Positions 3,258 to 25,809 of a stretch of 33,275 bases of DNA are shown piece by piece. Position numbers and translations under genes: made by a program. The notes beneath the pieces were generated by a model. That model was not told the origin of the DNA, did not search any database, and worked only from the letters and a program-made list of their open reading frames with translations. The DNA is taken from positions 1-33,275 of the forward strand of contig JAHAWU010000030.1 of assembly GCA_018383815.1 (NCBI GenBank), written 5' to 3'. Position 1 is the first letter of the stretch; each line of letters starts with the position of its first letter. This DNA comes from Candidatus Jordarchaeia archaeon (GTDB taxonomy: Archaea; Asgardarchaeota; Jordiarchaeia; Jordiarchaeales; Jordiarchaeaceae).

Positions 3258-3841
3258 TTTCATATCCCCTCTAACTTTAAATACACAATACCCGATCTGC
3301 ATTTTCAATTTTTCGATAAACCGCCCACCACAAAAATATGCAATAACGGCTCCCTGACAAGCCAACCTGAAAAATAGCAATTTTCTCTTACTCAAGCACA
3401 CGATTCCCTACACCAAAAGATACATCCTAAACCAAACAATAGGCAAACACCCTACAGGTAAACACTCAACCCACAATTTTAGTTCAACAATTCAAAACTA
3501 TGCTTTACTCCTCTGATTACTCGCCAAAAACAGTGCCACCAACAACTTGTTCATAATTCAGGATAACTGGATACTTTTAAATACAACAACTTTTTAGGAG
3601 TGAATAGGGAAGAAACCACAGTAAATAATCAAAATTTAGGATAATAAATAGTAAAAAGTGTTTTTCTCAGAATTGTAAAAAATTTAGAAAATAACTTGAT
3701 TCAAAATTAGACCCATAAACTTATAGTGGGTACAGTGATGTAAATCTTCCCTAAGTGGATGAACTTAACATTTAATAAAAACAGTAATAAAATAGTACAG
3801 CTCATCTTTCATTCATTTAATGAAGAGAGGAGGTGAATAAT
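3258..3841. other. Divergent intergenic region between aIF5B and rtcB
   Basis: About 580 nt without a gene, holding divergent promoters. It is A/C-rich on the plus strand up to about 3.5 kb, then A/T-rich. Two small hairpins are visible: ACCCA/TGGGT at 3711-3731 and TTCATT/AATGAA at 3808-3824. The second lies just upstream of the rtcB Shine-Dalgarno (AGAGGAGGTGA, 3825-3835). Confidence 0.5.
3771..3780 (+). promoter_or_regulatory. Possible TATA box for rtcB
   Basis: TTTAATAAAA about 70 nt before the rtcB start. Transcription would begin near 3800, leaving a leader of about 40 nt with the 3808-3824 hairpin and the Shine-Dalgarno. Based on archaeal spacing only. Confidence 0.35.
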
Positions 3842-5326
3842 TTGAGCACAAAAAACATACCGCTCAAACAAATCAGCAAAAACGTTTGGGAAATACCCAA
3901 AGATTTCCGCCCCTACATGAGGGTGCCTGCAAGAATCATTGCAAATGAGTACCTCATGAAAGACATACACAAAGACCAAACCCTAATCCAAGCAGCAAAT
4001 GTAACCAGCCTACCCGGAATAAAAAAATTCTCCGTAACCTTGCCCGACACATAAGGAGGACTACCTCCCCCGCGGGAAGCACACCAAGGCTACGGATTCC
4101 CAATAGGCGGAGTAGCCGCAACTGATTATGAAGAAGGAGTCCTAAGTCCAGGTGGCGTAGGATACGACATCAACTGCGGCGTTAGAATAATTACAACTAA
4201 TCTGGAAAGAAAAGATGTCGAAGAAAAAATAAAAGTCCTAACACAAGAAATTTTCGATAATGTTCCCAGCGGCCTAGGCTCCAAAAGAAAAATTAAACTC
4301 TCAATGAGCGAATTAGACGGCATCCTAGCCGAAGGCGTCAAATGGTCAATCAACAAAGGATTCGGCTGGGAAGAAGACGCCCTATACTGCGAAGCAAACG
4401 GAAGCCTAAAAGAAGCCGACCCCACAAAAGTATCAACAAAAGCAAAGGAGAGAGGCGTCGCACAAGTAGGAACACTAGGAGCTGGCAACCACTTTCTCGA
4501 AATCCAATATGTAGAAAAAATTTTCGACCAAGAAGCAGCCAAAGTATATGGACTAAGAGAGAATCAGGCCACAGTTATGATTCACACCGGCTCGAGAGGA
4601 CTAGGACATCAAGTATGCTCCGACTACCTACGAGTAATGGAAAGAGCCACAAAGAAATATGGAATCGACCTACCAGACAGAGAACTAGCAGCAGCACCCG
4701 GAAAAAGCCCCGAAGGCCAAGACTACCTAGCAGCCATGGCCGCAGCAGCCAACTTCGCCTGGGCCAATAGACAAAGCATAACCCACTGGGTAAGAGAATC
4801 CTTCCAAAAAGTATACGGCGTATCAGCAGAAGACCTTGAAATGCACCTAGTCTACGACGTAGCGCACAATATAGCCAAAATTGAAAAACACAAAGTCAAC
4901 GGCGAAATCAGCACAGTCTACGTACACAGAAAAGGCGCCACACGCGCATTCCCCCCAGAACACCCCGAACTACCACAAAAATACAGAACCATAGGACAAC
5001 CAGTCATCATACCTGGGACAATGGGAACCGCTAGCTACATCCTCAGAGGACGAAAAGAAGCCATGGAACTCAGCTTCGGATCCACCGCACATGGAGCGGG
5101 TAGGGTGATGAGTAGGAATGAGGCGATTAGGAGTTTTAGGGGTGAGAGTGTGAAGGGTAAGCTTTTGTCTGCGGGTATTCTTGTTAGGGCTGCGAGTATT
5201 GAGGTTGTGGCTGAGGAGGCTCCTGAGGCTTACAAGAATGTTGATGAGGTGGCTAAAGCGTCACATGATGCGGGTATTGCTTCTCTGGTTGCGCGTCTCC
5301 GTCCTCTGGGTGTTGTGAAGGGCTGA
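3842..5326 (+). CDS. rtcB: RtcB RNA-splicing ligase, gene split by a 30-nt intron (exons 3842-4048 and 4079-5326)
   Basis: 3'-phosphate/5'-OH RNA ligase that seals tRNA and mRNA halves made by the splicing endonuclease, using GTP and manganese. The first segment ends in LPD followed by ACA and an in-frame TAA at 4052. Exactly 30 nt later, in the same frame, the family continues with [11 protein letters not shown]. Deleting 4049-4078 gives a 484-residue protein colinear with Pyrococcus RtcB (about 481): [18 protein letters not shown] (metal Cys, residue 102), [25 protein letters not shown] and [10 protein letters not shown] (guanylated His, residue 407). All active-site residues are intact, which argues against a pseudogene. 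I chose TTG 3842 because AGAGGAGGTGA (3825-3835) is well spaced for it; GTG 3833 lies inside that element. Third codon positions change abruptly from A/C to G/T at 5096. Confidence 0.93.
4049..4078 (+). other. Predicted 30-nt archaeal (BHB-type) intron in the rtcB pre-mRNA
   Basis: Seen: an in-frame insert with stop TAA (4052-4054) inside an otherwise complete RtcB frame. With the usual BHB topology (exon-1 strand pairs with the intron's 3' end), CCCG (4043-4046) pairs with CGGG (4073-4076) as the 4-bp central helix. It is followed on the 5' side by AC^A and on the 3' side by AA^G. Cuts there remove exactly 4049-4078 and restore LPD-A-HQGYG. Inside, GGAGG (4055-4059) pairs with CCTCC (4064-4068) around an ACTA loop. 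Outside, CCTTG (4038-4042) can pair with CAAGG (4085-4089). The motif is relaxed: the inner helix is separated by an internal loop, and the outer pairing needs a longer 3' bulge. The tRNA-Asp T-arm intron in this window uses the same CCCG/CGGG helix and is also 30 nt. Splicing is inferred. Confidence 0.75.
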
Positions 5327-11065: not shown

Positions 11066-11764
11066 GTGGTTTCAATATGTGTTCCTGTAGCGGCTGAAAA
11101 TCCGGAAATATTACTGGAAAAGATTACTTCGACTGCGGAAAAGGCTCCTGATTTCATTGAGGTTAGAGTAGATTATCTTAAAGACCTGAATATTGACTTT
11201 TTAGAACTAGTCTCTAAAATATCCATTCCACTAATATTAACTGTGAGGAAAAAGAGTGAAGGAGGATTGTTTAAATTCGGAGAGAAGAAGAGGACTGAGA
11301 TTTTAGAAAAATGTATTGAAGCTAAACCGAGATTTGTAGATTTAGAGTTAAGTACAAGTAGATCCTCCTTAGGGCGGTTGTTAAAAACTGCAGAGCACAA
11401 TTCAGTGGGCGTCATCCTATCGTTTCATTCATTTAAAAACACGCCTAAAAGGGAAAAACTGGTAGAGAAAATCCGTCAAGCAGCCCAAATGGGAGTAGAC
11501 CTGGTGAAAATCGTGACTTTCGCTAGGGAGATAAAAGATAACCTCACCACACTTTCCCTCCCTCAAGAGGCCCATGATTTGGGAATCAAGATAATCTCAT
11601 TTTGCATGGGAGAAAAAGGTATAATCTCCAGGGTTTTATGTCCCTTCTTCGGCTCTTATCTAACTTATGCTTCACTAGAAACAAGTACTGCTCCGGGCCA
11701 AATAGATTTAGAGGTTATGAGAAAAATACACAAGATTTTCTATTCCCTTATGAAGTTTAACTAG
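11066..11764 (+). CDS. aroD: 3-Dehydroquinate dehydratase, type I
   Basis: 232 residues. It converts 3-dehydroquinate to 3-dehydroshikimate through a lysine Schiff base. Recognisable elements are EVRVDYL (substrate-binding Glu/Arg), ILTVRKKSEGG, SFHSF with the catalytic His, LVKIVTFA with the Schiff-base Lys, and the C-terminal TAPGQIDLEVM motif. The length fits the archaeal type I enzyme. It starts at GTG 11066, with GGTG a few bases upstream. It is the first gene of the cluster and is followed by aroE after 51 nt. Its substrate comes from the DHQ synthase II encoded at 21647-22723. Confidence 0.95.
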   Translation: MVSICVPVAAENPEILLEKITSTAEKAPDFIEVRVDYLKDLNIDFLELVSKISIPLILTVRKKSEGGLFKFGEKKRTEILEKCIEAKPRFVDLELSTSRSSLGRLLKTAEHNSVGVILSFHSFKNTPKREKLVEKIRQAAQMGVDLVKIVTFAREIKDNLTTLSLPQEAHDLGIKIISFCMGEKGIISRVLCPFFGSYLTYASLETSTAPGQIDLEVMRKIHKIFYSLMKFN

Positions 11765-11815
11765 CCAATGTTCTAAATGTTGCTAGATAAAAGTATAAAA
11801 TTGGAGGCTCATAAG

Positions 11816-12667
11816 ATGTGGAGCGGCACCAAAGTTATCTGCGTGATTGGTGATCCTATTGATCACTCATTATCCCCCAGAATGCACAATGCTGCCTTCA
11901 AACACTTGGGTCTTAACTACGTGTATGTTCCCTTTAGGGTTCTGAAAGCAGATTTGAAATATGCTGTGAGAGGGATAAGGGCCTTGAACATAAGGGGATT
12001 TAATGTCACAATTCCGCATAAGGTTTCGATAATGAAGTTTTTAGATGATGTTGACTCCACAGCCCTGAAAATAGGTTCAGTTAATACAGTGGTAAATGAG
12101 GATGGGAAACTCTTGGGATATAATACTGACGGCCTGGGTTTTTCAGAAGCTTTAAGAGAAGAGGGAGTAAACCCTGAAGGTAAAAAAGTAGTACTTATCG
12201 GGGCTGGAGGGGCTTCGAGAGCTGTCTCTTTTTACCTTGCTGGTGTGTGTTCAAAATTAACTATCTTGAACCGTACAAGGAGTAAGGCTTTAAAGCTGGC
12301 TAGAGAATTAACAAGCCTTGGTTACAAAGTTTATGGAAAAGGTTTAACAACAAAATCCTTGGAGAAGGAGATAGCTGATTGTGACTTGCTAGTTAACACG
12401 ACTTCTGTGGGTATGTATCCTAATGTGGGCGAGTCGCCTGTCCCGAGAAATTTCTTGCGCAAGGATTTGGTGGTTTTTGATATTGTTTACAATCCTTTAG
12501 AAACCTTGCTTTTAAGTTATGCTCGGGAAATCGGCGCAAAGGCTGTGGATGGAGTTGGGATGCTAGTCAATCAAGGTGCAATTGGTTTTAAAATGTGGAC
12601 AGGGGTCGAGGCCCCTAAAGACGTTATGAGAAGAGTGGTAATTGATAGTTTGCGTGGAAGGGATTAA
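11816..12667 (+). CDS. aroE: Shikimate dehydrogenase
   Basis: 283 residues, NADP-dependent reduction of 3-dehydroshikimate to shikimate. Motifs: GDPIDHSLSPRMHNAAF at the substrate site, FNVTIPHK with the catalytic Lys, NTDGLGF with the catalytic Asp, the GAGGASRA dinucleotide loop followed by NRTRSKA (Arg preferring NADP), and a C-terminal GVGMLVNQGAIGF. I use ATG 11816 because TTGGAGG (11801-11807) is ideally spaced; the earlier ATG 11777 has no ribosome site. The next gene starts 3 nt after the stop. Confidence 0.96.
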   Translation: MWSGTKVICVIGDPIDHSLSPRMHNAAFKHLGLNYVYVPFRVLKADLKYAVRGIRALNIRGFNVTIPHKVSIMKFLDDVDSTALKIGSVNTVVNEDGKLLGYNTDGLGFSEALREEGVNPEGKKVVLIGAGGASRAVSFYLAGVCSKLTILNRTRSKALKLARELTSLGYKVYGKGLTTKSLEKEIADCDLLVNTTSVGMYPNVGESPVPRNFLRKDLVVFDIVYNPLETLLLSYAREIGAKAVDGVGMLVNQGAIGFKMWTGVEAPKDVMRRVVIDSLRGRD

Positions 12668-12670
12668 AGA

Positions 12671-13531
12671 TTGAAAGGTAGAGCTTTAGCTTTCGGAGCG
12701 GGAACAGTTGTAAATGCTATTGCCACTGGTTTTGGCGCTGCTTTTGGAATCGCTCTTTGGACAAAGGCAGAAGTGGAGCTTTTGGATGAACCCGGATTTT
12801 TCGAGGGAAAAATTCTAAATGAGCCCTCCGAGAATACTAGGCTAATATGTACCACTGTTAAACATGTCTTGAATCACTTCAAACTGAGCCGGGAATATGG
12901 TGCTCGAGTGATTACTGATTCCATAATTCCCATCTCTAAGGGGCTTAAGAGTAGTAGTGTAGCCGCTAACGCAGTTGCCTTAGCCACTGTCGCAGCTCTG
13001 AAAGAAAACTTGGAGGATCTGGAAATCATTCGTATAGGCGTTGAGGCAGCTTTAGAGTCGGGAGTAACTATCACGGGAGCTTTTGACGACGCTTGTGCAT
13101 CATATTTTGGTGGGTATGTAGTCACAGATAATTTAAAGAGAATATTGATTAGTAGACAGCAACTTAAGGAAGATTTGACAGTAATGATTCAGGTGCCACC
13201 TAGAAAGAGCCACAGAGAGGGTAATATTAAAAGAATGAAATCCATCAAAAACTATGTAGAACACGTTTTTAACCTCGCTCTGAATGGAGAATACAAAACT
13301 GCAATAACTCTAAACGGTCTGCTCTACTCTGCAGCCTTGGGTTACGACACCGAAGCTACAGTCAGAGCCCTTGAAGCTGGAGCGGTTTCAGCGGGATTAA
13401 CAGGAACTGGGCCAGCGACAATTGCGCTATGCCCTAGAGACGTTTGTGACGATATCGAAACTTCCTGGAAAGAGTTAGAAGGTAGAATTATTCGCACCGA
13501 ATTTAATAACGAAAAGGCCAAAGTAATCTAG
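12671..13531 (+). CDS. aroK: Shikimate kinase, archaeal GHMP-kinase type
   Basis: 286 residues. It phosphorylates shikimate at O3. This is the archaeal enzyme unrelated to bacterial AroK. The ATP-binding loop PISKGLKSSSVAANAVALA is the GHMP motif 2, GAGTVVNAIATGFGAAFGI is the N-terminal block, and LTGTGPATIAL near residues 250-260 is motif 3. It starts at TTG 12671, 3 nt after the aroE stop, with GGAAGGGA inside the aroE end as ribosome site, so translational coupling is likely. Confidence 0.94.
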   Translation: MKGRALAFGAGTVVNAIATGFGAAFGIALWTKAEVELLDEPGFFEGKILNEPSENTRLICTTVKHVLNHFKLSREYGARVITDSIIPISKGLKSSSVAANAVALATVAALKENLEDLEIIRIGVEAALESGVTITGAFDDACASYFGGYVVTDNLKRILISRQQLKEDLTVMIQVPPRKSHREGNIKRMKSIKNYVEHVFNLALNGEYKTAITLNGLLYSAALGYDTEATVRALEAGAVSAGLTGTGPATIALCPRDVCDDIETSWKELEGRIIRTEFNNEKAKVI

Positions 13532-13544
13532 AGAGGTAATTCTC

Positions 13545-14843
13545 ATGAATCTAGTAGTTAATGGTGGAGGTAGTCTGCAAGGAGCTGTTTCTGCGCCTCC
13601 CTCGAAAAGTTATACTCACAGAGCTTTTATTATATCAACTCTTGCTGAAGGGAAGTCTAAAATTTTTGAGCCCTTAATTAGTAGAGATACTCTCGCATCC
13701 ATAAGGGCTTGTGAAGCCTTAGGCGCGGTTATTGAGAGGAGAAGCGAAAAGGTGTGGTGCGTTTCCGGCTCTCCGTCACCCAAAACACCAGAAGATGTTA
13801 TAAATGTTGATAATTCAGGAACCACAATTCGTATTATGACTGCTGTCTCCTCCTTAGCTCCAGGATTCACTGTACTTACAGGCGACGCCTCAATCAGGCA
13901 GAGGCCAATGGGCCCACTTATTAAATCTTTGGGAGATTTGGGAGTGAGATGTTTTTCTACAAAGGGTGATGACAAACCTCCTATTGTGGTGGAGGGTGGA
14001 GGTATTAAAGGAGGAAAAACAAATATTCCTGGACATATCAGCTCCCAATTTATTTCAGCTCTACTTATTGCCTGTCCTTTAGCTAAAAACGAAACAAGAA
14101 TAAGTTTTACCTCCGAACTAAAATCAGAGCCCTATCTTGAAATGACCATGGAGGTTCTAAGCCTTTTCAAGGGAAATATAAAATACTTACCAAATATTGG
14201 TGTGGTTATACCCCCAAAACAGACATACTCACCAGCCAGCGTTAGGATTCCCGGGGACTTCTCTTCGGCTGCATTTATTCTTTCAGCCGCGGCTATAACT
14301 GATTCCGATGTAAAAATCCATAATTTGGATATGGGTTCCAAGCAGGGCGATAAGAAAATTGTCGATATACTTATCAAAATGGGTGCTGAGGTCGAATTGG
14401 GAGAAAATTATGTTAGGATAATTGGAGGTCATAAACTAAAGGGCATCTCCTTTGATTGTGGCAATAACCCTGATTTGCTGCCCATTCTTGCTGTTTTAGG
14501 GTCAGTTGCAGAAGGTAAAACCGATATCTTTAATGCACAACATGTTCGTTACAAGGAGAGCGATCGCGTATCTGCCATGGCTAAAGAACTATCCAAAATG
14601 GGCATTCGCATAGATGAAAAGATAGATGGTCTTACAATCCATGGTGGGAAATTAAAAGGGGCTCATGTTGAAACTTATAATGACCATAGGATACTCATGG
14701 CTCTTGCAGTAGCTGCTTTAGCGGCAGAAGGGGAAACTATTATTTCAGGAGTGGAGTCTGTAGATGTTTCTTACCCCTCCTTTCTTGAAGATATGAATTT
14801 CCTAGGTGCGAGTTTTAGGAGAATGAATAAAAATGCCGGGTAA
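13545..14843 (+). CDS. aroA: 3-Phosphoshikimate 1-carboxyvinyltransferase (EPSP synthase)
   Basis: 432 residues. It joins shikimate-3-phosphate and phosphoenolpyruvate to form EPSP. Seen: PPSKSYTHRAFI (S3P-binding Lys/Ser/Arg), DNSGTTIRIMTAV, GDASIRQRPMGPLI, SSQFISALLIA, the basic KESDRVSAMAKEL and YNDHRILMALAVAAL near the C-terminus. All regions of the two-domain fold are present. Ribosome site GAGAGGT lies upstream of ATG 13545. It overlaps aroC by 11 nt, so the two are translated as a coupled pair. Confidence 0.97.
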   Translation: MNLVVNGGGSLQGAVSAPPSKSYTHRAFIISTLAEGKSKIFEPLISRDTLASIRACEALGAVIERRSEKVWCVSGSPSPKTPEDVINVDNSGTTIRIMTAVSSLAPGFTVLTGDASIRQRPMGPLIKSLGDLGVRCFSTKGDDKPPIVVEGGGIKGGKTNIPGHISSQFISALLIACPLAKNETRISFTSELKSEPYLEMTMEVLSLFKGNIKYLPNIGVVIPPKQTYSPASVRIPGDFSSAAFILSAAAITDSDVKIHNLDMGSKQGDKKIVDILIKMGAEVELGENYVRIIGGHKLKGISFDCGNNPDLLPILAVLGSVAEGKTDIFNAQHVRYKESDRVSAMAKELSKMGIRIDEKIDGLTIHGGKLKGAHVETYNDHRILMALAVAALAAEGETIISGVESVDVSYPSFLEDMNFLGASFRRMNKNAG

Positions 14844-15945
14844 TATATTTGGTGAAAGGTTTGTTTTAGTGTCATTTGGCGAAAGTCATGGGAGATGTGT
14901 GGGCGCCGTTATAGACGGGTGCCCCGCAGGACTAAAGCTTTCCGAGAAAGATATACAGAGAGAGTTGGATAGACGAAAACCTGGACAAAGCGGGATAACC
15001 ACTACTCGAAGTGAGGCCGACGAAGTTGAAATCCTCTCTGGATTATTTGAGGGGTATACTACAGGCGCTCCAATATGTATGGTTGTTTGGAATAAGGATG
15101 TAGATTCTACAAAATATGAAACTGTTAAGTATGAACCACGACCTGGGCATGCCGACTACACCGCGTTTGTCAGATATGGCGGTTTCAATGATCCTCGGGG
15201 GGGAGGAAGACTATCAGGGAGAACTACAATCTCTTATATTATGGGAGGCACTGTAGCTAAAAAATTGCTCCGGGAAACTCTTAATGTTGAAATTCTGGCG
15301 CACACCACTGAAATCGGAGGAGTAAAGGCGGAAAGTAAATCATTAGAGGAAATAAGACAAGCTGACAGTAATCCCGTGAGGTGTGCTGACACCGAAGCAG
15401 CAAAGCAAATGATAGCACGCATAAATGAGGCGCAGAAACAAAAAGATAGTGTAGGAGGAACTATTCAATGCATAGCATTAAACGTCCCAGCGGGATTGGG
15501 CGACCCTGTTTTCAACACTCTTGAAGGTGACATAAGCAAGGCACTCTACTCTATACCCGCAGTTAAAAGCGTCGAGTTCGGAAGCGGAGTAGACTCAGCT
15601 AAAATGACTGGTTCCCAGCACAACGATCCCTTTGTTCTGCGTGAGGGCAAAATAATTACACTTTCAAACTATGCGGGAGGAATTCTGGGTGGAATAAGCA
15701 ATGGAATGCCCATAACCTGTAGAGTTACCATAAAGCCCACGCCATCAATCCGCAAAAAGCAGCAAACAGTAAATCTGTTAAGTATGAAGGAAACCACAAT
15801 AGAAGTCGAGGGAAGACATGACCCTTGCATAGTGCCCAGAGCCATTCCCGTTGTGGAAGCAATGGTTGCAATGGTTATTCTGGATCACGCGATTTCAGCC
15901 AACCTTATTCCAAGAGTTTTAGGAAAAAAAAATTTGAGAGAATAA
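14833..15945 (+). CDS. aroC: Chorismate synthase
   Basis: 370 residues. It eliminates phosphate from EPSP to give chorismate with reduced FMN. Signatures: FGESHGRCVGAVIDGCPAG, RRKPGQSGITTTRSE, RPGHADYTAFVRYG, the GRTTISYIMGG block, GGILGGISNGMPI, KPTPSIRKKQQTV and EGRHDPCIVPRAIPVVEAM. Length and motifs are normal. It begins inside the end of aroA (AGGAGAATG upstream), and is followed by 185 nt before the chorismate mutase gene. Confidence 0.97.
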   Translation: MPGNIFGERFVLVSFGESHGRCVGAVIDGCPAGLKLSEKDIQRELDRRKPGQSGITTTRSEADEVEILSGLFEGYTTGAPICMVVWNKDVDSTKYETVKYEPRPGHADYTAFVRYGGFNDPRGGGRLSGRTTISYIMGGTVAKKLLRETLNVEILAHTTEIGGVKAESKSLEEIRQADSNPVRCADTEAAKQMIARINEAQKQKDSVGGTIQCIALNVPAGLGDPVFNTLEGDISKALYSIPAVKSVEFGSGVDSAKMTGSQHNDPFVLREGKIITLSNYAGGILGGISNGMPITCRVTIKPTPSIRKKQQTVNLLSMKETTIEVEGRHDPCIVPRAIPVVEAMVAMVILDHAISANLIPRVLGKKNLRE

Positions 15946-16130
15946 ACCGCCCGCAAGTTCCAGGTTCAAAATTACATATTTTATTCCGAATAGATGTAGC
16001 TAAAATAGTAAATGATTGTTTGTGGTGAGAATAACCCATAAAAGCTACCAGAAAGTTTTAAACAATAACCGCTTTACGAGAAAATTAAATCAGTAGATTA
16101 GTGGTGTGAAAGTTTTTTGAGGTAAACACT

Positions 16131-16400
16131 TTGGAGGACCTAGAAGCTCTGAGATTGAAAATCGTTGATGTTACAATTGAAATTTTAAAACTAGTAAAGA
16201 AACGCCTAGAACTAGCAAGAGAGGCAAAAAGAATAAAGGCACAAAAAGGGCTTCCCATAAAAGACGAATACGCTGAGAGGAGACTTCTATCCAAAGTGCT
16301 AGAGACCTGCGAAGAGCTAAATATTTTTCCTGAACTCGGCAAAGAGTTAACTAAACTGCTAATAAAATATTCAATAAAAATTCAGGAAGAAGACGAATAA
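16131..16400 (+). CDS. aroQ: Chorismate mutase, AroQ class
   Basis: 89 residues, all helical. It rearranges chorismate to prephenate. The pattern of an N-terminal helix with LRLKIVDVTIEILKLVKKR (Arg at the active site), ELAREAKRIKAQKGLPIKDEYAERRLL and a C-terminal helix is that of mono-functional archaeal AroQ. The start TTG 16131 is supported by GAGGT at 16119-16123, 7 nt upstream; no nearer ATG exists. It lies 41 nt upstream of the prephenate dehydrogenase gene, which uses its product. Confidence 0.9.
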   Translation: MEDLEALRLKIVDVTIEILKLVKKRLELAREAKRIKAQKGLPIKDEYAERRLLSKVLETCEELNIFPELGKELTKLLIKYSIKIQEEDE

Positions 16401-16441
16401 TTAAGTATAGACTACCACTCTGTGTAATAAGAGGGATAAGG

Positions 16442-17335
16442 ATGACGACTTCTAGGGTTGCAATTGTGGGTGGGTCTGGACGGATGGGTTCATGGTTTTC
16501 TCAATACTTCAAAGATAAAAAATACTCAGTAGTTCTGAGTGCCAGGAACCGTGAGAAATTAATTGCCGCAGCAAAGAAACTTGGAGTGAGCTACGCAGAA
16601 AACAATGTGGAAGCTGTGAAAAACGCGGACCTAGTAATGGTTTCTGTGCCCATTTCTAGCACGGTAAGCATTATAAAAGAGATAGCTCCCTTCTTAAACC
16701 CCAAAACAATACTCTTTGATATAGCTTCCGTTAAAGGGGATATACCCAAAACTTTAGAGGAACAGAGTTTGAAGTACGGATTCAAAGCGGTTAGTGTTCA
16801 CCCAATGTTTGGGCCAGGCGCAACAAGCCTAAAAGGTCACACCGTGGCAATTATACCAATTCCCGGCTCGGAGGATGCAGCCGCAAAACTGGAGCAACTG
16901 TTTAGTGATGATGGTGCTCGGGTAGTAGTAACTGATGGTAAGACTCACGATAGAATGATTAGTGTCGTACTTGGTTTACCTCACTTTTTGAATATACTAT
17001 TCGGAGCAGCGTTATTAGAAGTTCCGGAAGCTATTTCCCAGATTAGAGAGTTCTCAGGAACAACATTCGAATTACAGCTTCTTTTGGCCGAATGCGTTTT
17101 TGGAGAAGACCCAGAGCTATACTCCGAAATACAAATGGTTAACAAAGATTTTGTAAACTTTCTGGGAAAGCTGGAAAAAGTGTTCAGCGATTTAAAAAAA
17201 ACCATTGAACAAAATAATGAGGTAGTATTCTTCAAAAACTTTGAGAGGGTAAGAGAAAAACTAGCTCAGGACACCAAATATGCGAGCGCTTATAATAACT
17301 TATATAAGATAATCAAAATTTTGAAAAATGGTTAA
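16442..17335 (+). CDS. tyrA: Prephenate dehydrogenase
   Basis: 297 residues. It oxidatively decarboxylates prephenate to 4-hydroxyphenylpyruvate (or arogenate to tyrosine; the sequence does not decide). The N-terminal Rossmann motif is VAIVGGSGRMGSWFSQYF; VSVPISST and FDIASVKGD follow; SVHPMFGPG carries the catalytic His; the C-terminal half is the helical dimerisation domain. The ribosome site GAGGGATAAGG precedes ATG 16442. No ACT regulatory domain is attached. It is the last gene of the plus-strand aromatic run. No prephenate dehydratase or aminotransferase is seen in the window. Confidence 0.93.
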   Translation: MTTSRVAIVGGSGRMGSWFSQYFKDKKYSVVLSARNREKLIAAAKKLGVSYAENNVEAVKNADLVMVSVPISSTVSIIKEIAPFLNPKTILFDIASVKGDIPKTLEEQSLKYGFKAVSVHPMFGPGATSLKGHTVAIIPIPGSEDAAAKLEQLFSDDGARVVVTDGKTHDRMISVVLGLPHFLNILFGAALLEVPEAISQIREFSGTTFELQLLLAECVFGEDPELYSEIQMVNKDFVNFLGKLEKVFSDLKKTIEQNNEVVFFKNFERVREKLAQDTKYASAYNNLYKIIKILKNG

Positions 17336-21646: not shown

Positions 21647-22723
21647 CTATTTTTCTACAATTGTTTCCTCTACGGATTTTCCAAAGTGTCGCCCGCCTGT
21701 AATGGTGTAAATCAGAATTTCGTCTCCCTTTTTTAGTTTTGCAACAGAAACAGGTTTTCCGTCCTTATCCACTAAGTTTACTGTTTCAGCGTTTTGAACC
21801 AACGTTTTAAAAATCTTTCTATCTAATTCCACTTTAACAATTAGTAAGGGCCTTTTTTCTATTTTTACGCGTCCCACAACAACTTCTCGGCAATTTCCCT
21901 GATAATCAACTGCAAGTACATTGTCCCCTGCTTCAAGTTCCGAAAGATACTTTGTTTTTCCATCGGCCATCAATACATATGCGTGAACCGCTCCCGCATT
22001 CACCCTGAAGGGTCTGGGTGTTGCGAATTCTGTTTGAAGTGTCTCGCTATGGATAAGGAATAAGCCCTGGGATTGGCTCCCTACTAGCATCCCTTCACCT
22101 TCTCTAAGAAGTGAGCAGGTATCTACACAGACGCGATCCCCCGATCCTACCTCATTTACCTCCACAACTTTTGCTGCTGTCAATTCCAGTCTTTTGGGCA
22201 TCTCAATTATTTTCTTTAGTTCAATTATTTCTTTGGCCGTTTTGGGTGTGAAGAGCACCCCGTCGACACCGATTTCCAGAGTTTGAAAAAGGGTTTTCGC
22301 TTCATCCAAGTTTCTGGCCTCAGCATATAGCTCTGTGGCAGATTTGTGGAGTTCTGCAATCAAGTTTTCTATGGGAATTATTTTCCAGTCTTCAGTTTCC
22401 ACAATAACATATGGAACTCCTATTTTAGAAAGTTCTGAGACCTTTTCTTCGTCCTTCTTAGTTTTTATGTTTACCCAACACGCTACTCTTTTTTCATGCT
22501 CCATGATCCTTAGAATTTTTTCAGGACTGGTCTCTGTAACAATTAGAACATCTGGTTTGGGATTCTCGGAAGGAGAAAAAACAGTCACCGAACCCAGTTG
22601 CTTGAGTTGAGATATGACTGATTTATCTGCTACAAAGGCGTTTATCCCGCTGGTCATTGAAGTTACAGCTAGCTCCTTAATGTCCTCCCAGCTACCGTTT
22701 AGTCGTATAATTATCCTTTTCAT
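21647..22723 (-). CDS. aroB': 3-Dehydroquinate synthase II (AroB')
   Basis: 358 residues. It converts ADTH (2-amino-3,7-dideoxy-D-threo-hept-6-ulosonate) to 3-dehydroquinate with NAD by oxidative deamination and cyclisation; this archaeal enzyme is unrelated to bacterial AroB. The family-specific stretches seen are GVDGVLFTP, VGSGDRVCVDTCSLL, EGEGMLVGSQSQGLFLIHSE, RPFRVNAGAVHAYV, YLSELEAGDNVLAVDYQG and the C-terminal GRHFGKSV. Its ATG overlaps the stop of the preceding ADTH synthase gene (ATGA), so translation is coupled. It is the last gene of the lysC operon, and its product feeds AroD of the plus-strand cluster. Confidence 0.95.
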   Translation of the reverse strand: MKRIIIRLNGSWEDIKELAVTSMTSGINAFVADKSVISQLKQLGSVTVFSPSENPKPDVLIVTETSPEKILRIMEHEKRVACWVNIKTKKDEEKVSELSKIGVPYVIVETEDWKIIPIENLIAELHKSATELYAEARNLDEAKTLFQTLEIGVDGVLFTPKTAKEIIELKKIIEMPKRLELTAAKVVEVNEVGSGDRVCVDTCSLLREGEGMLVGSQSQGLFLIHSETLQTEFATPRPFRVNAGAVHAYVLMADGKTKYLSELEAGDNVLAVDYQGNCREVVVGRVKIEKRPLLIVKVELDRKIFKTLVQNAETVNLVDKDGKPVSVAKLKKGDEILIYTITGGRHFGKSVEETIVEK

Positions 22724-23505
22724 CCCTTTGACCCCAAGAGTTCTAGTGCTTCCTCCACCGAGATTCCCTTTTTAACTATTTCTGATACCGCTCTTACAAA
22801 GGCTGTGGGGTTCGGGTGTTGGAATGCGTTTCTTCCCATAGCCACGCCTATGGCTCCCGCCTCCATGGAATCCTTAACCATTTGAAGCGCTTCACGGTCA
22901 GTCTCTGTTTTAGGTCCTCCCGCAATAATAATAGGTACTGGGCACCCCTCAACCACCTTTGAAAAGGTGTCTACTTTTCCTGTGAATGGCGTTTTTATAA
23001 TGTCTGCTCCTAGCTCCGCTCCTATCCTTGAAGCGTGGGCGATTACCTTTGGATCAAATGCATCAATATTTTTTCCCCGTGGATACATCATAGCAATTAG
23101 GGGCATTTGCCAATCCTCACACTCCGTTGATATCTGACCCAGATCCCTTAGCATCTCTGGTTCCCTTTCACTTCCGATGTTAATATGTATGGAAACTGCG
23201 TCTACGCCAAGTTTTACTGCTTCCTCCACTGTGCCTACAATCACCTTCCAGTTAGGATCCGGTCCTAAGGCGGTGCTCCCTGAAATATGCATTATAAGCC
23301 CACAATTGGGTGCTTTTTCTAGTTGTTTAATAATACCTTTGTGAAGCAAAACTGCTGTCGCTCCACCTTTTGAAACTAGTTCCACCATTCCTCTAATGTT
23401 TTCAAGTCCCTTAATTGGTCCGTTGGTAACTCCATGATCCATGGGAATTATGACAGATCTGTTGTTTTCCATTATTCGTCTCAATCTAAGTTCTTTTCCT
23501 CTCAT
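22720..23505 (-). CDS. aroA': ADTH synthase (2-amino-3,7-dideoxy-D-threo-hept-6-ulosonate synthase, AroA')
   Basis: 261 residues, a class I aldolase-like TIM barrel. It transfers the aldol fragment of 6-deoxy-5-ketofructose 1-phosphate to aspartate semialdehyde. Signatures: IIPMDHGVTNGP, VLLHKGII, MHISGSTALGPDPNWK, IHINIGSE, MYPRGKNI, GADIIKTPFTG with the Schiff-base Lys, IIAGGPKT, and GVAMGRNAFQHPNP. The start MRGKELRLRRI (ATG 23505, GAGTGGAT upstream) replaces the longer frame to 23550, which overlaps asd and is not conserved. It sits 10 nt after asd, whose product is its substrate. Confidence 0.94.
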   Translation of the reverse strand: MRGKELRLRRIMENNRSVIIPMDHGVTNGPIKGLENIRGMVELVSKGGATAVLLHKGIIKQLEKAPNCGLIMHISGSTALGPDPNWKVIVGTVEEAVKLGVDAVSIHINIGSEREPEMLRDLGQISTECEDWQMPLIAMMYPRGKNIDAFDPKVIAHASRIGAELGADIIKTPFTGKVDTFSKVVEGCPVPIIIAGGPKTETDREALQMVKDSMEAGAIGVAMGRNAFQHPNPTAFVRAVSEIVKKGISVEEALELLGSKG

Positions 23506-23515
23506 TTTTATCCAC

Positions 23516-24577
23516 TCACAAAAGTTTTTTTGCGTATAAAAGTTCAGCATTAAGAACTACGGCTCCAGCTGCGCCTCTAATAGTGTTATGGCTAATTAGA
23601 GTCAAAAGTAAATGATTCTCATCGAATCCCTGCCTTACTCTTCCCACTGTTACACTCATTCCTGGAACTGTACCTGCCATACGATCCAATCTTGGCTGAG
23701 GTCTATCCTCCTCGTCTCTAACTATTATGGGCTTTTTGGGGGCTGAGGGTAAATTCAGTTTTTGGGGTTCACCCTTAAATTCGCTGAGAACCTTTTTTGC
23801 TTCTTCAACATCTACTGGCTCCTTAGTTTTGATGAAAACAGTTTCTGTGTGTCCATCAATTACTGGTACCCTATTACACGAAACTGCTATTTTGAAATCT
23901 GCAAATTTGACCTCCCCATCTTTGATTTTACCCAAAATTTTTAGATTCTCAGTCATCACTTTTTTCTCTTCGTCTTTGATGTACGGAATTATGTTATCCG
24001 TAATTAGTAATCCGGAGACGCCAGGGAGGCCGGCTCCGGAAATGGCCTGCATGGTACTTACATATACTGTATCAAGCCCGAATCGGTCATAAATGGGTTT
24101 GAGAACCATAGCCAAACCAATGGTCGTGCAATTGGGGTCGGTCACTATGTAACCATCCCACCCTCTATTTTCTTTCTGGACTTCAATAAGTTGAAGATGG
24201 TCTGGGTTTACCTCTGGAATAACTAAGGGCACATCTTTTTCCATTCTGTAGGCGCTGGCATTGCTGGCAACCACACAGCCTGCCTCCGCAAAATTCTTCT
24301 CAACATCCTTTGCTATATCTGAGGGCAGGGCTGAGAAAACTAGGTGTGCTCTTGTTTCTCGGGGGTCGGTATTTACAACTGTCATATCTTTTATTTCCTC
24401 AGGAATTTCCATGGGGAGGTGCCAGTTTACAGCAGCCTCCTTGTATTTTTTACTGGCTGATCTTTCCGAGGCTGCGATGGAGACAATGTTGAACCAAGGA
24501 TGGTTGCAAACCATTTCTATTAGTCTTTGGCCCACGGTGCCTGTGCAACCCAAAATTGAGACATCTATCTTTTTCAA
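23516..24577 (-). CDS. asd: Aspartate-semialdehyde dehydrogenase
   Basis: 353 residues, archaeal/fungal-type enzyme. It reduces aspartyl phosphate to aspartate semialdehyde with NADPH. The N-terminal loop is [40 protein letters not shown] with the catalytic Cys, the GAGLPGVSG stretch and C-terminal [26 protein letters not shown] are as in the family. It starts at a TTG whose last bases overlap the TGA of lysC, with GGAGGTCAAGGA upstream. In this operon the semialdehyde goes directly to ADTH synthase, and it can also serve threonine, methionine or lysine synthesis. Confidence 0.96.
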
Positions 24578-25809
24578 TCCTTGACCTCCAGATTTGTTTT
24601 AATTAGTTCAGTTGCCTTTTCTTTTTCTTTTTGATTCACGAAAATTCTTACACTCGAGCTGATGGTCAGAATTCCAAAAATGTTGATTTTCGCCTTTCCG
24701 AGGAGACTTGCAACCGTATCAACTATGCCAGGCGAGGTTTCCAAATTTCCGCCCTTAACAGTAATCATTGAAAGATTCTCGAAGAGAGAAACCGCTTTAC
24801 CTAATCCTTTTTCTCTAATTGTCCTGTGGATTGAGTTTACTACTTTTTTAGTATTTTCGCCAGAAATGTATAATATTAGAGATAAAGGCTCCAAAGCTGC
24901 GGATAAAATTTTTCCCCCTGTCTCTCTTACCGCTGAGAGGATAGAGAACAACGCTTCGGGTTTAACAGCCTCCTCTCCAACTATTGTGACCATGGAAACA
25001 TTGGTATCGCTGGCTAAAACTTCCAGTTCTGGGAAACCTGAACCCGTTATCACTGTTCCGGTGGCTGCTAAGTCTCCATTTTGAAAACCAACAATCCTTA
25101 TCAACATATCTCGAGGCTTGAACCATAAGGCCTTGGGGTGAATTATTTTCGCTCCCGTGGAGGTGAGTCTAACTACCTCCTCTGTGTCTAGCGACTTTAT
25201 GAGAGCAGTGCTATCAATAAAGTCGGGGTCTCCCGTAAGAACGCCTTCCACATCCTTAACTAAAATTACTTCTTTGGCTGCCAAACAGTTTCCAATCAGT
25301 ACTGCAGACGTATCACTTCCACCCCGTCCTAATGTGGTGATTTGGCCCTGAAGAGTCTTCCCCAGAAATCCACATACAACTGGAACCACTTGATTCTCTA
25401 TTAAAGGAGTTAATTTTTCTACTACCGCCTTTTTTGTTTCCTTAACAAGGGGGTCTGCGTTTCCGAAGCGGTCGTTTGTAAAAATAGGCCAGTAATCGGA
25501 GTAAGGATCTATAGGAATGCTCTTGACTCCTGCAGATCTCAGCGCCGAGGCCATTAAGCGGGCCGCCACCCTTTCACCCATAGAAAGTATTTCATCCAGT
25601 TCCACTGAGCTTATATTTCCCTCAGTAGATCCTTCAGCTAACCTTAATAACTGGTCGGTAGTTCCCTTCAGAGCAGATACAACCACTACCACGTTCCTAC
25701 CCTTATTGGTTTCCGCAACTACCATCTTAGCTGCTTTCACTAAGTCCTCACTGGTGGACAAACAAGAACCGCCAAACTTAACCACGATGGTATTGTCTGC
25801 ATTCGACAT
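24574..25809 (-). CDS. lysC: Aspartate kinase
   Basis: 411 residues. It phosphorylates aspartate, the first step toward aspartate semialdehyde. The kinase domain shows [34 protein letters not shown] and [13 protein letters not shown]; the last about 140 residues form two ACT domains ([10 protein letters not shown] ... LSMITVKGG ... [11 protein letters not shown]), the usual site of amino-acid feedback. ATG 25809 follows AGAGGGAT. As first gene of a lysC-asd-ADTH synthase-DHQ synthase II operon, its ACT domains would be a control point for aromatic precursors too. The long leader upstream carries repeats (separate entry). Confidence 0.95.

Follow-up and report, generated by a model that had tools for sequence, protein, structure and literature searches.

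The rtcB locus and its interrupted reading frame

The window, a 33,275-nt stretch of DNA from Candidatus Jordarchaeia archaeon (assembly GCA_018383815.1, contig JAHAWU010000030.1), carries on its forward strand an RNA ligase gene, rtcB, whose reading frame is broken by a short insert. PMC11291895 names this Asgard class Freyarchaeia. Translation from the TTG at 3842 confirms what an earlier note, made from the sequence alone, had claimed, namely that a TAA at 4052 interrupts RtcB between LPD and HQGYGF, and the 70-residue product that it gave for the unspliced message agrees in length. Its further claim that removal of 30 nt repairs the protein also held; with 4049-4078 deleted the frame reads SVTLPDAHQGYGF, LPD|AHQGYGF is restored exactly, and the result is a 484-residue RtcB. 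When aligned over its whole length with Pyrococcus horikoshii RtcB (1uc2/4dwq, where the motif is PDGHQGYGF), the insert-free protein shows no gap at the insert site. A second intact rtcB was not found in the genome, the copy in the window being the only one. The features of the locus, all on the + strand, are as follows.

3829..3835, +, Shine-Dalgarno-like GGAGGTG 5' of the TTG start (from the sequence; a similar site precedes the TTG of congeners)
3842..4048, +, rtcB exon 1, with a TTG start and 69 codons, ending in ...LPD (from translation and five-species comparison)
4032..4042, +, predicted outer helix, 5' strand CCGUA.CCUUG, in exon 1 (across the species, one pair is doubly changed from U-A to C-G)
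4043..4046, +, predicted central helix, 5' strand CCCG, in exon 1
4047..4049, +, predicted 5' bulge AC^A, with the predicted cut after 4048
4049..4078, +, putative 30-nt BHB intron (PDAHQG restored on its removal; a 30-nt insert in five species, missing from the sister family)
4052..4054, +, in-frame stop TAA in the insert (TGA or TAA in congeners)
4055..4068, +, predicted inner hairpin GGAGG-ACUA-CCUCC within the intron
4073..4076, +, predicted central helix, 3' strand CGGG, in the intron (AGGG in two congeners)
4077..4079, +, predicted 3' bulge AA^G, with the predicted cut after 4078; it runs into an 8-nt loop
4079..5326, +, rtcB exon 2, 415 codons and a stop, beginning AHQGYGF
4085..4095, +, predicted outer helix, 3' strand CAAGG.UACGG, in exon 2

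Elsewhere the window holds a shikimate-pathway cluster (11066-17335; aroD, aroE, aroA, aroC and prephenate dehydrogenase) and, at 21647-25809, genes for an archaeal DHQ synthase II, a DeoC/LacD-type aldolase and an aspartate-kinase-like protein.

Conservation of the insert and its predicted fold

We found rtcB in 92 of the 99 relatives searched. Among these, the four genomes of the window's genus, a Jordarchaeum-like Asgard one, each have exactly one in-frame stop in the gene (TAA, TGA, TAA and TGA), and a fifth species (L056) also has a stop-bearing insert; in the other 88 genomes with rtcB there is no such stop. Because five species have it, the insert is not a product of chance. In each of the five it is 30 nt long and lies in phase 0 between an Asp codon and an Ala codon. 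In the sister family (G004, G006 and G007) LPDAHQGYGF is uninterrupted, so that intron-less relatives lack exactly this segment, as the earlier note had predicted. Among the loci read, the spacing before HxGYGF is 14 residues in 68 matches and 24 residues, including the stop, in 10 inserted matches (five species, some counted twice), with none intermediate. The exons are under strong purifying selection (dN/dS 0.04-0.08), and the inserts are identical among species at only 17-24 of their 30 positions.

Folding of 4030-4100 gave a stable structure (minimum free energy -25.7 kcal/mol, z = -3.7), matched by none of 200 shuffles, in which the central helix CCCG/CGGG is recovered with a pair probability of 0.99. 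The 4-bp central helix and 3-nt bulges (ACA and AAG) of a BHB are present in the window species. The helix has four pairs in three of the five species and three pairs plus a G-A in the other two (G001 and L056), where the G-A takes the place of the fourth pair and the minimum-energy fold moves the bulge by one base. A cut after the second bulge residue gives PDAHQG in all five species, and this is the sole register that the protein permits. When a 30-nt excision was slid along the window, a 4-bp central helix arose at 2.1% of positions; with the inner helix also counted, the four congeners stand at 0.0003-0.001 and the window only at 0.019. One outer pair changes from U-A to C-G among the five species and one inner pair from G-C to A-U, covariation that is not significant alone.

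The flanking helices depart from the strict hBHBh' form. Only two outer pairs adjoin the motif, and on the 3' side the strong outer helix begins only past an 8-nt loop. In the four congeners the inner helix lies at or adjoining the bulge, but that of the window species (GGAGG/CCUCC) is offset from it. Of the endonuclease-substrate topology proposed in the earlier note, the central helix and the predicted cut sites AC^A and AA^G stood, with the correction that the flanks are not strict. In the folding model the rtcB motif is of the relaxed BHB type, and many cbf5 introns likewise have a relaxed motif (PMC2738675).

Comparable inserts in other genes of the lineage

Besides rtcB, we found seven sites in five genes with a like architecture, some of them with lengths indivisible by three, such that only removal from the RNA (or from the DNA) can repair the frame. 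Across all eight sites (24 sequences) a BHB in the canonical register restores the expected protein, and four central pairs form in 22 of the 24 sequences. At every mRNA intron site, A is the first residue of both bulges. Like inteins, the inserts sit in motifs that are highly conserved and in many cases catalytic.

In cbf5, a 29-35-nt insert occurs in all six Jordarchaeia genomes read at sequence level, from both families (G000, G002, G003, G004, G006 and G007; L109-L114). It forms an almost ideal BHB (GGGA-CACT-AG^A ... AGTG-AA^A-TCCC) and separates the first letter of the catalytic Asp codon from the other two. The crenarchaeal cbf5 intron lies in the same codon and the same phase (PMC2738675), which raises the question of whether mRNA introns of this type predate the split between Crenarchaeota and Asgard archaea or arose twice at a single site. 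In adenosylhomocysteinase (SAHH), a BHB insert of 27-34 nt with a TGGG/CCCA helix lies at TKWE|FDN in G000-G003 (L250-L254 and L256); the G001 gene has a second insert, of 188 nt, with GCGC/GCGC, and the sister family has neither. In NAD synthetase (NadE), 33 nt that include a stop are inserted in G001 and G002 (L265 and L266), and the insert is cleanly absent in G000 and G003 (L263 and L264). The EF-2 genes of the sister family (G004, G006 and G007; L274/L278, L275/L279 and L273/L277) are shifted out of frame at DTPGHV|D|FTG by a 29-nt BHB insert, which G000, G001 and G003 lack. Lastly, in an Fe-S protein of G004 (L284) a stop-bearing insert of 30 nt lies at TRCGY|C; the fold at this site shows no excess stability (z 0.0), and the site rests on its register and on intact relatives.

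Presence and absence of these introns are clade-specific, even within the genus, and with NadE interrupted in two of its four genomes the lineage offers a natural system for following the gain and loss of mRNA introns between close species. The SAHH, NadE, EF-2 and Fe-S sites came out of a two-way survey, in which 259 genes of G004 were compared with part of G001 and 297 genes of G001 with part of G004 (stretches of 0.76 Mb from G004 and 1.45 Mb from G001); antisense open frames were removed by overlap and stops at alignment ends were disregarded as end effects. About 1% of the conserved genes sampled were affected (3/259 and 2/297). This is a lower bound, since introns common to both families escape such a survey. 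Taken together, the sequences suggest that the lineage habitually splices mRNA by way of the tRNA pathway, and the set of eight sites lends support to reading the rtcB insert as an intron. Gene callers will wrongly annotate such genes as broken or short.

Splicing enzymes and readings of the rtcB insert

Splicing endonuclease is encoded twice in each genome of the genus, by one gene with the catalytic His and one without. In L045 the three residues expected of a catalytic subunit (Tyr, His and Lys) appear to be kept, and L050 presumably lacks the His. The pairing of one subunit that has this residue with one that does not suggests an endonuclease of the alpha-beta type, a type that has been linked to relaxed motifs and to mRNA introns (PMC2738675). 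The genome also has a gene for archease, and thus encodes endonuclease, RtcB and archease together, with rtcB itself interrupted. Frames matching PF09414 in these genomes measure about 580-630 aa, and both of the two scanned are ATP-dependent DNA ligases. Given this, and the presence of RtcB with archease, RtcB is the likely enzyme for joining exons. Introns are found in 9 of the 20 tRNAs predicted from part of G001, and the genomes of PMC11291895 have them in 92-95% of their tRNA genes.

Comparison and predicted fold together indicate that the BHB intron reading of rtcB is very probably right. It is supported by the insert in five species and the lack of a stop in 88 genomes, by the register, the conserved stop, the constraint on the exons and the single copy, and by the enzymes encoded. 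In our model, CCCG at the end of exon 1 would pair with CGGG at the intron's 3' end, exposing two bulges. Cuts at AC^A and AA^G would be made by a splicing endonuclease that is probably alpha-beta in type, and RtcB with the help of archease would ligate GAC to GCA, giving the 484-residue protein. Unspliced mRNA would be a dead end. RtcB therefore probably has to help make its own mRNA, and its synthesis would need earlier RtcB, which mother cells could pass on; as we analyze it, such a dependence would form a positive loop, bootstrapped by inherited protein. No special regulatory reason is required for the intron, since unrelated housekeeping genes of the lineage carry like ones, and autoregulation of rtcB, a possibility that the earlier note raised from this logical dependence, is not needed to explain it. 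We consider it highly likely, overall, that the rtcB pre-mRNA contains, in the 30-nt insert, a BHB intron like those of archaeal tRNA and cbf5, belonging to the lineage's set of introns in protein genes and probably serving no regulatory purpose.

A bolder view would be that Jordarchaeia have genome-wide, actively gained and lost mRNA introns processed by the tRNA enzymes, and that the one in rtcB ties ligase output to free ligase, letting the burden of tRNA splicing feed back on every spliced mRNA; we regard this combination as rather unlikely. Somewhat less favored again is that a real intron has been retained in rtcB because the level of RtcB follows its activity, as a feedback switch tied to tRNA-splicing load. 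The dependence would be inevitable if RtcB does the joining, and tRNA introns are so common in the class that competition for the ligase is plausible, but the simple loop would be positive and not homeostatic, like introns occur in genes unrelated to RNA processing (SAHH and NadE), the sister family manages without an rtcB intron, and beyond the BHB we saw no conserved regulatory element.

The remaining alternatives do away with the intron. One is a split gene, in which translation, having stopped at the TAA or TGA, begins again at an in-frame ATG or GTG (M/V-R-E-A-H-Q-G) that follows a GAGG in the insert, the two chains then assembling. Four of the five species do have such a start codon, with a GAGG-like site between stop and start, yet the window species has CCG there, and its first in-frame ATG, GTG or TTG is at 4304, past the DINC metal site. 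The ATG or GTG is accounted for by inner-helix pairing with CATR at the 5' end of the intron, and a split rtcB would leave the frame-shifting inserts of cbf5, EF-2 and the G001 SAHH unexplained, making this very improbable. We give still less credence to ribosomes reading through or hopping over the insert, by stop recoding or translational bypassing. An insert that is divisible by three and forms a hairpin would suit either process, but no single recoded stop fits a position at which both TAA and TGA occur, the take-off codon (GAC or GAT) differs from the codon that ends the insert (GAA), and related inserts, of 27-35 nt and 188 nt, are often indivisible by three. Least credible is that the gene is decaying into a pseudogene or that assembly or binning went wrong. 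Every genome here is metagenome-assembled, but recurrence in five separate assemblies, exons constrained at dN/dS 0.04-0.08, no second rtcB in the genome and an rtcB in 92 of 99 relatives argue against this reading.

The crenarchaeal cbf5 pre-mRNA intron offers the closest parallel to the putative rtcB intron, being likewise a short intron in a protein gene, with a BHB and cuts between the second and third bulge residues, that interrupts a critical motif, often has a relaxed motif and is linked to a hetero-oligomeric endonuclease (PMC2738675). The rtcB case differs in that the ligase gene itself is affected, in that the host is an Asgard lineage, Jordarchaeia, and in the further intron-bearing genes of the same genomes. 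Nor does its intron lie in the catalytic Asp codon of cbf5, where the lineage's own cbf5 has one. The BHB pre-mRNA intron of crenarchaeal cbf5 reportedly goes back to work by Watanabe in 2002; PMC2738675 is a 2009 paper by Yokobori. Archaeal tRNA and rRNA introns share the predicted signal and enzymes, while rtcB presents them in an mRNA, outside the tRNA context. An mRNA substrate of the endonuclease with a processed 5' UTR is also a message that is cut, but in rtcB the coding frame is split and needs rejoining. According to a 2020 paper (PMC7714728), the sole other BHB intron described for an archaeal mRNA is that of cbf5, at that date the one case known of a coding frame interrupted in archaea and repaired by the tRNA-splicing system, and we found neither an rtcB intron nor an Asgard mRNA intron in the full-text literature, with preprints and most subscription papers outside the scope of the search. 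What appears new is the gene concerned, the lineage and the breadth, within a kind of intron already known. An Asgard lineage would have tRNA-type introns in several housekeeping genes, including the gene for a ligase that the pathway needs.

Other classes of intervening sequence fit poorly. At 30 nt, the insert compares with a self-splicing core of hundreds of bases in group I and group II introns, and its stop and length set it apart from an intein, which would be an open in-frame insert of at least 130 codons with intein motifs. RtcB inteins are known in Pyrococcus. Like the insert they lie near conserved active-site motifs, but they are spliced at the protein level, span about 500 codons in an open frame and occupy another position. 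In two Asgard relatives (G051:C1:1674331-1677159 and G072:C130:813-3653), an open frame of about 1000 codons holds an rtcB that is divided, in intein-like fashion, after approximately profile position 50-76.
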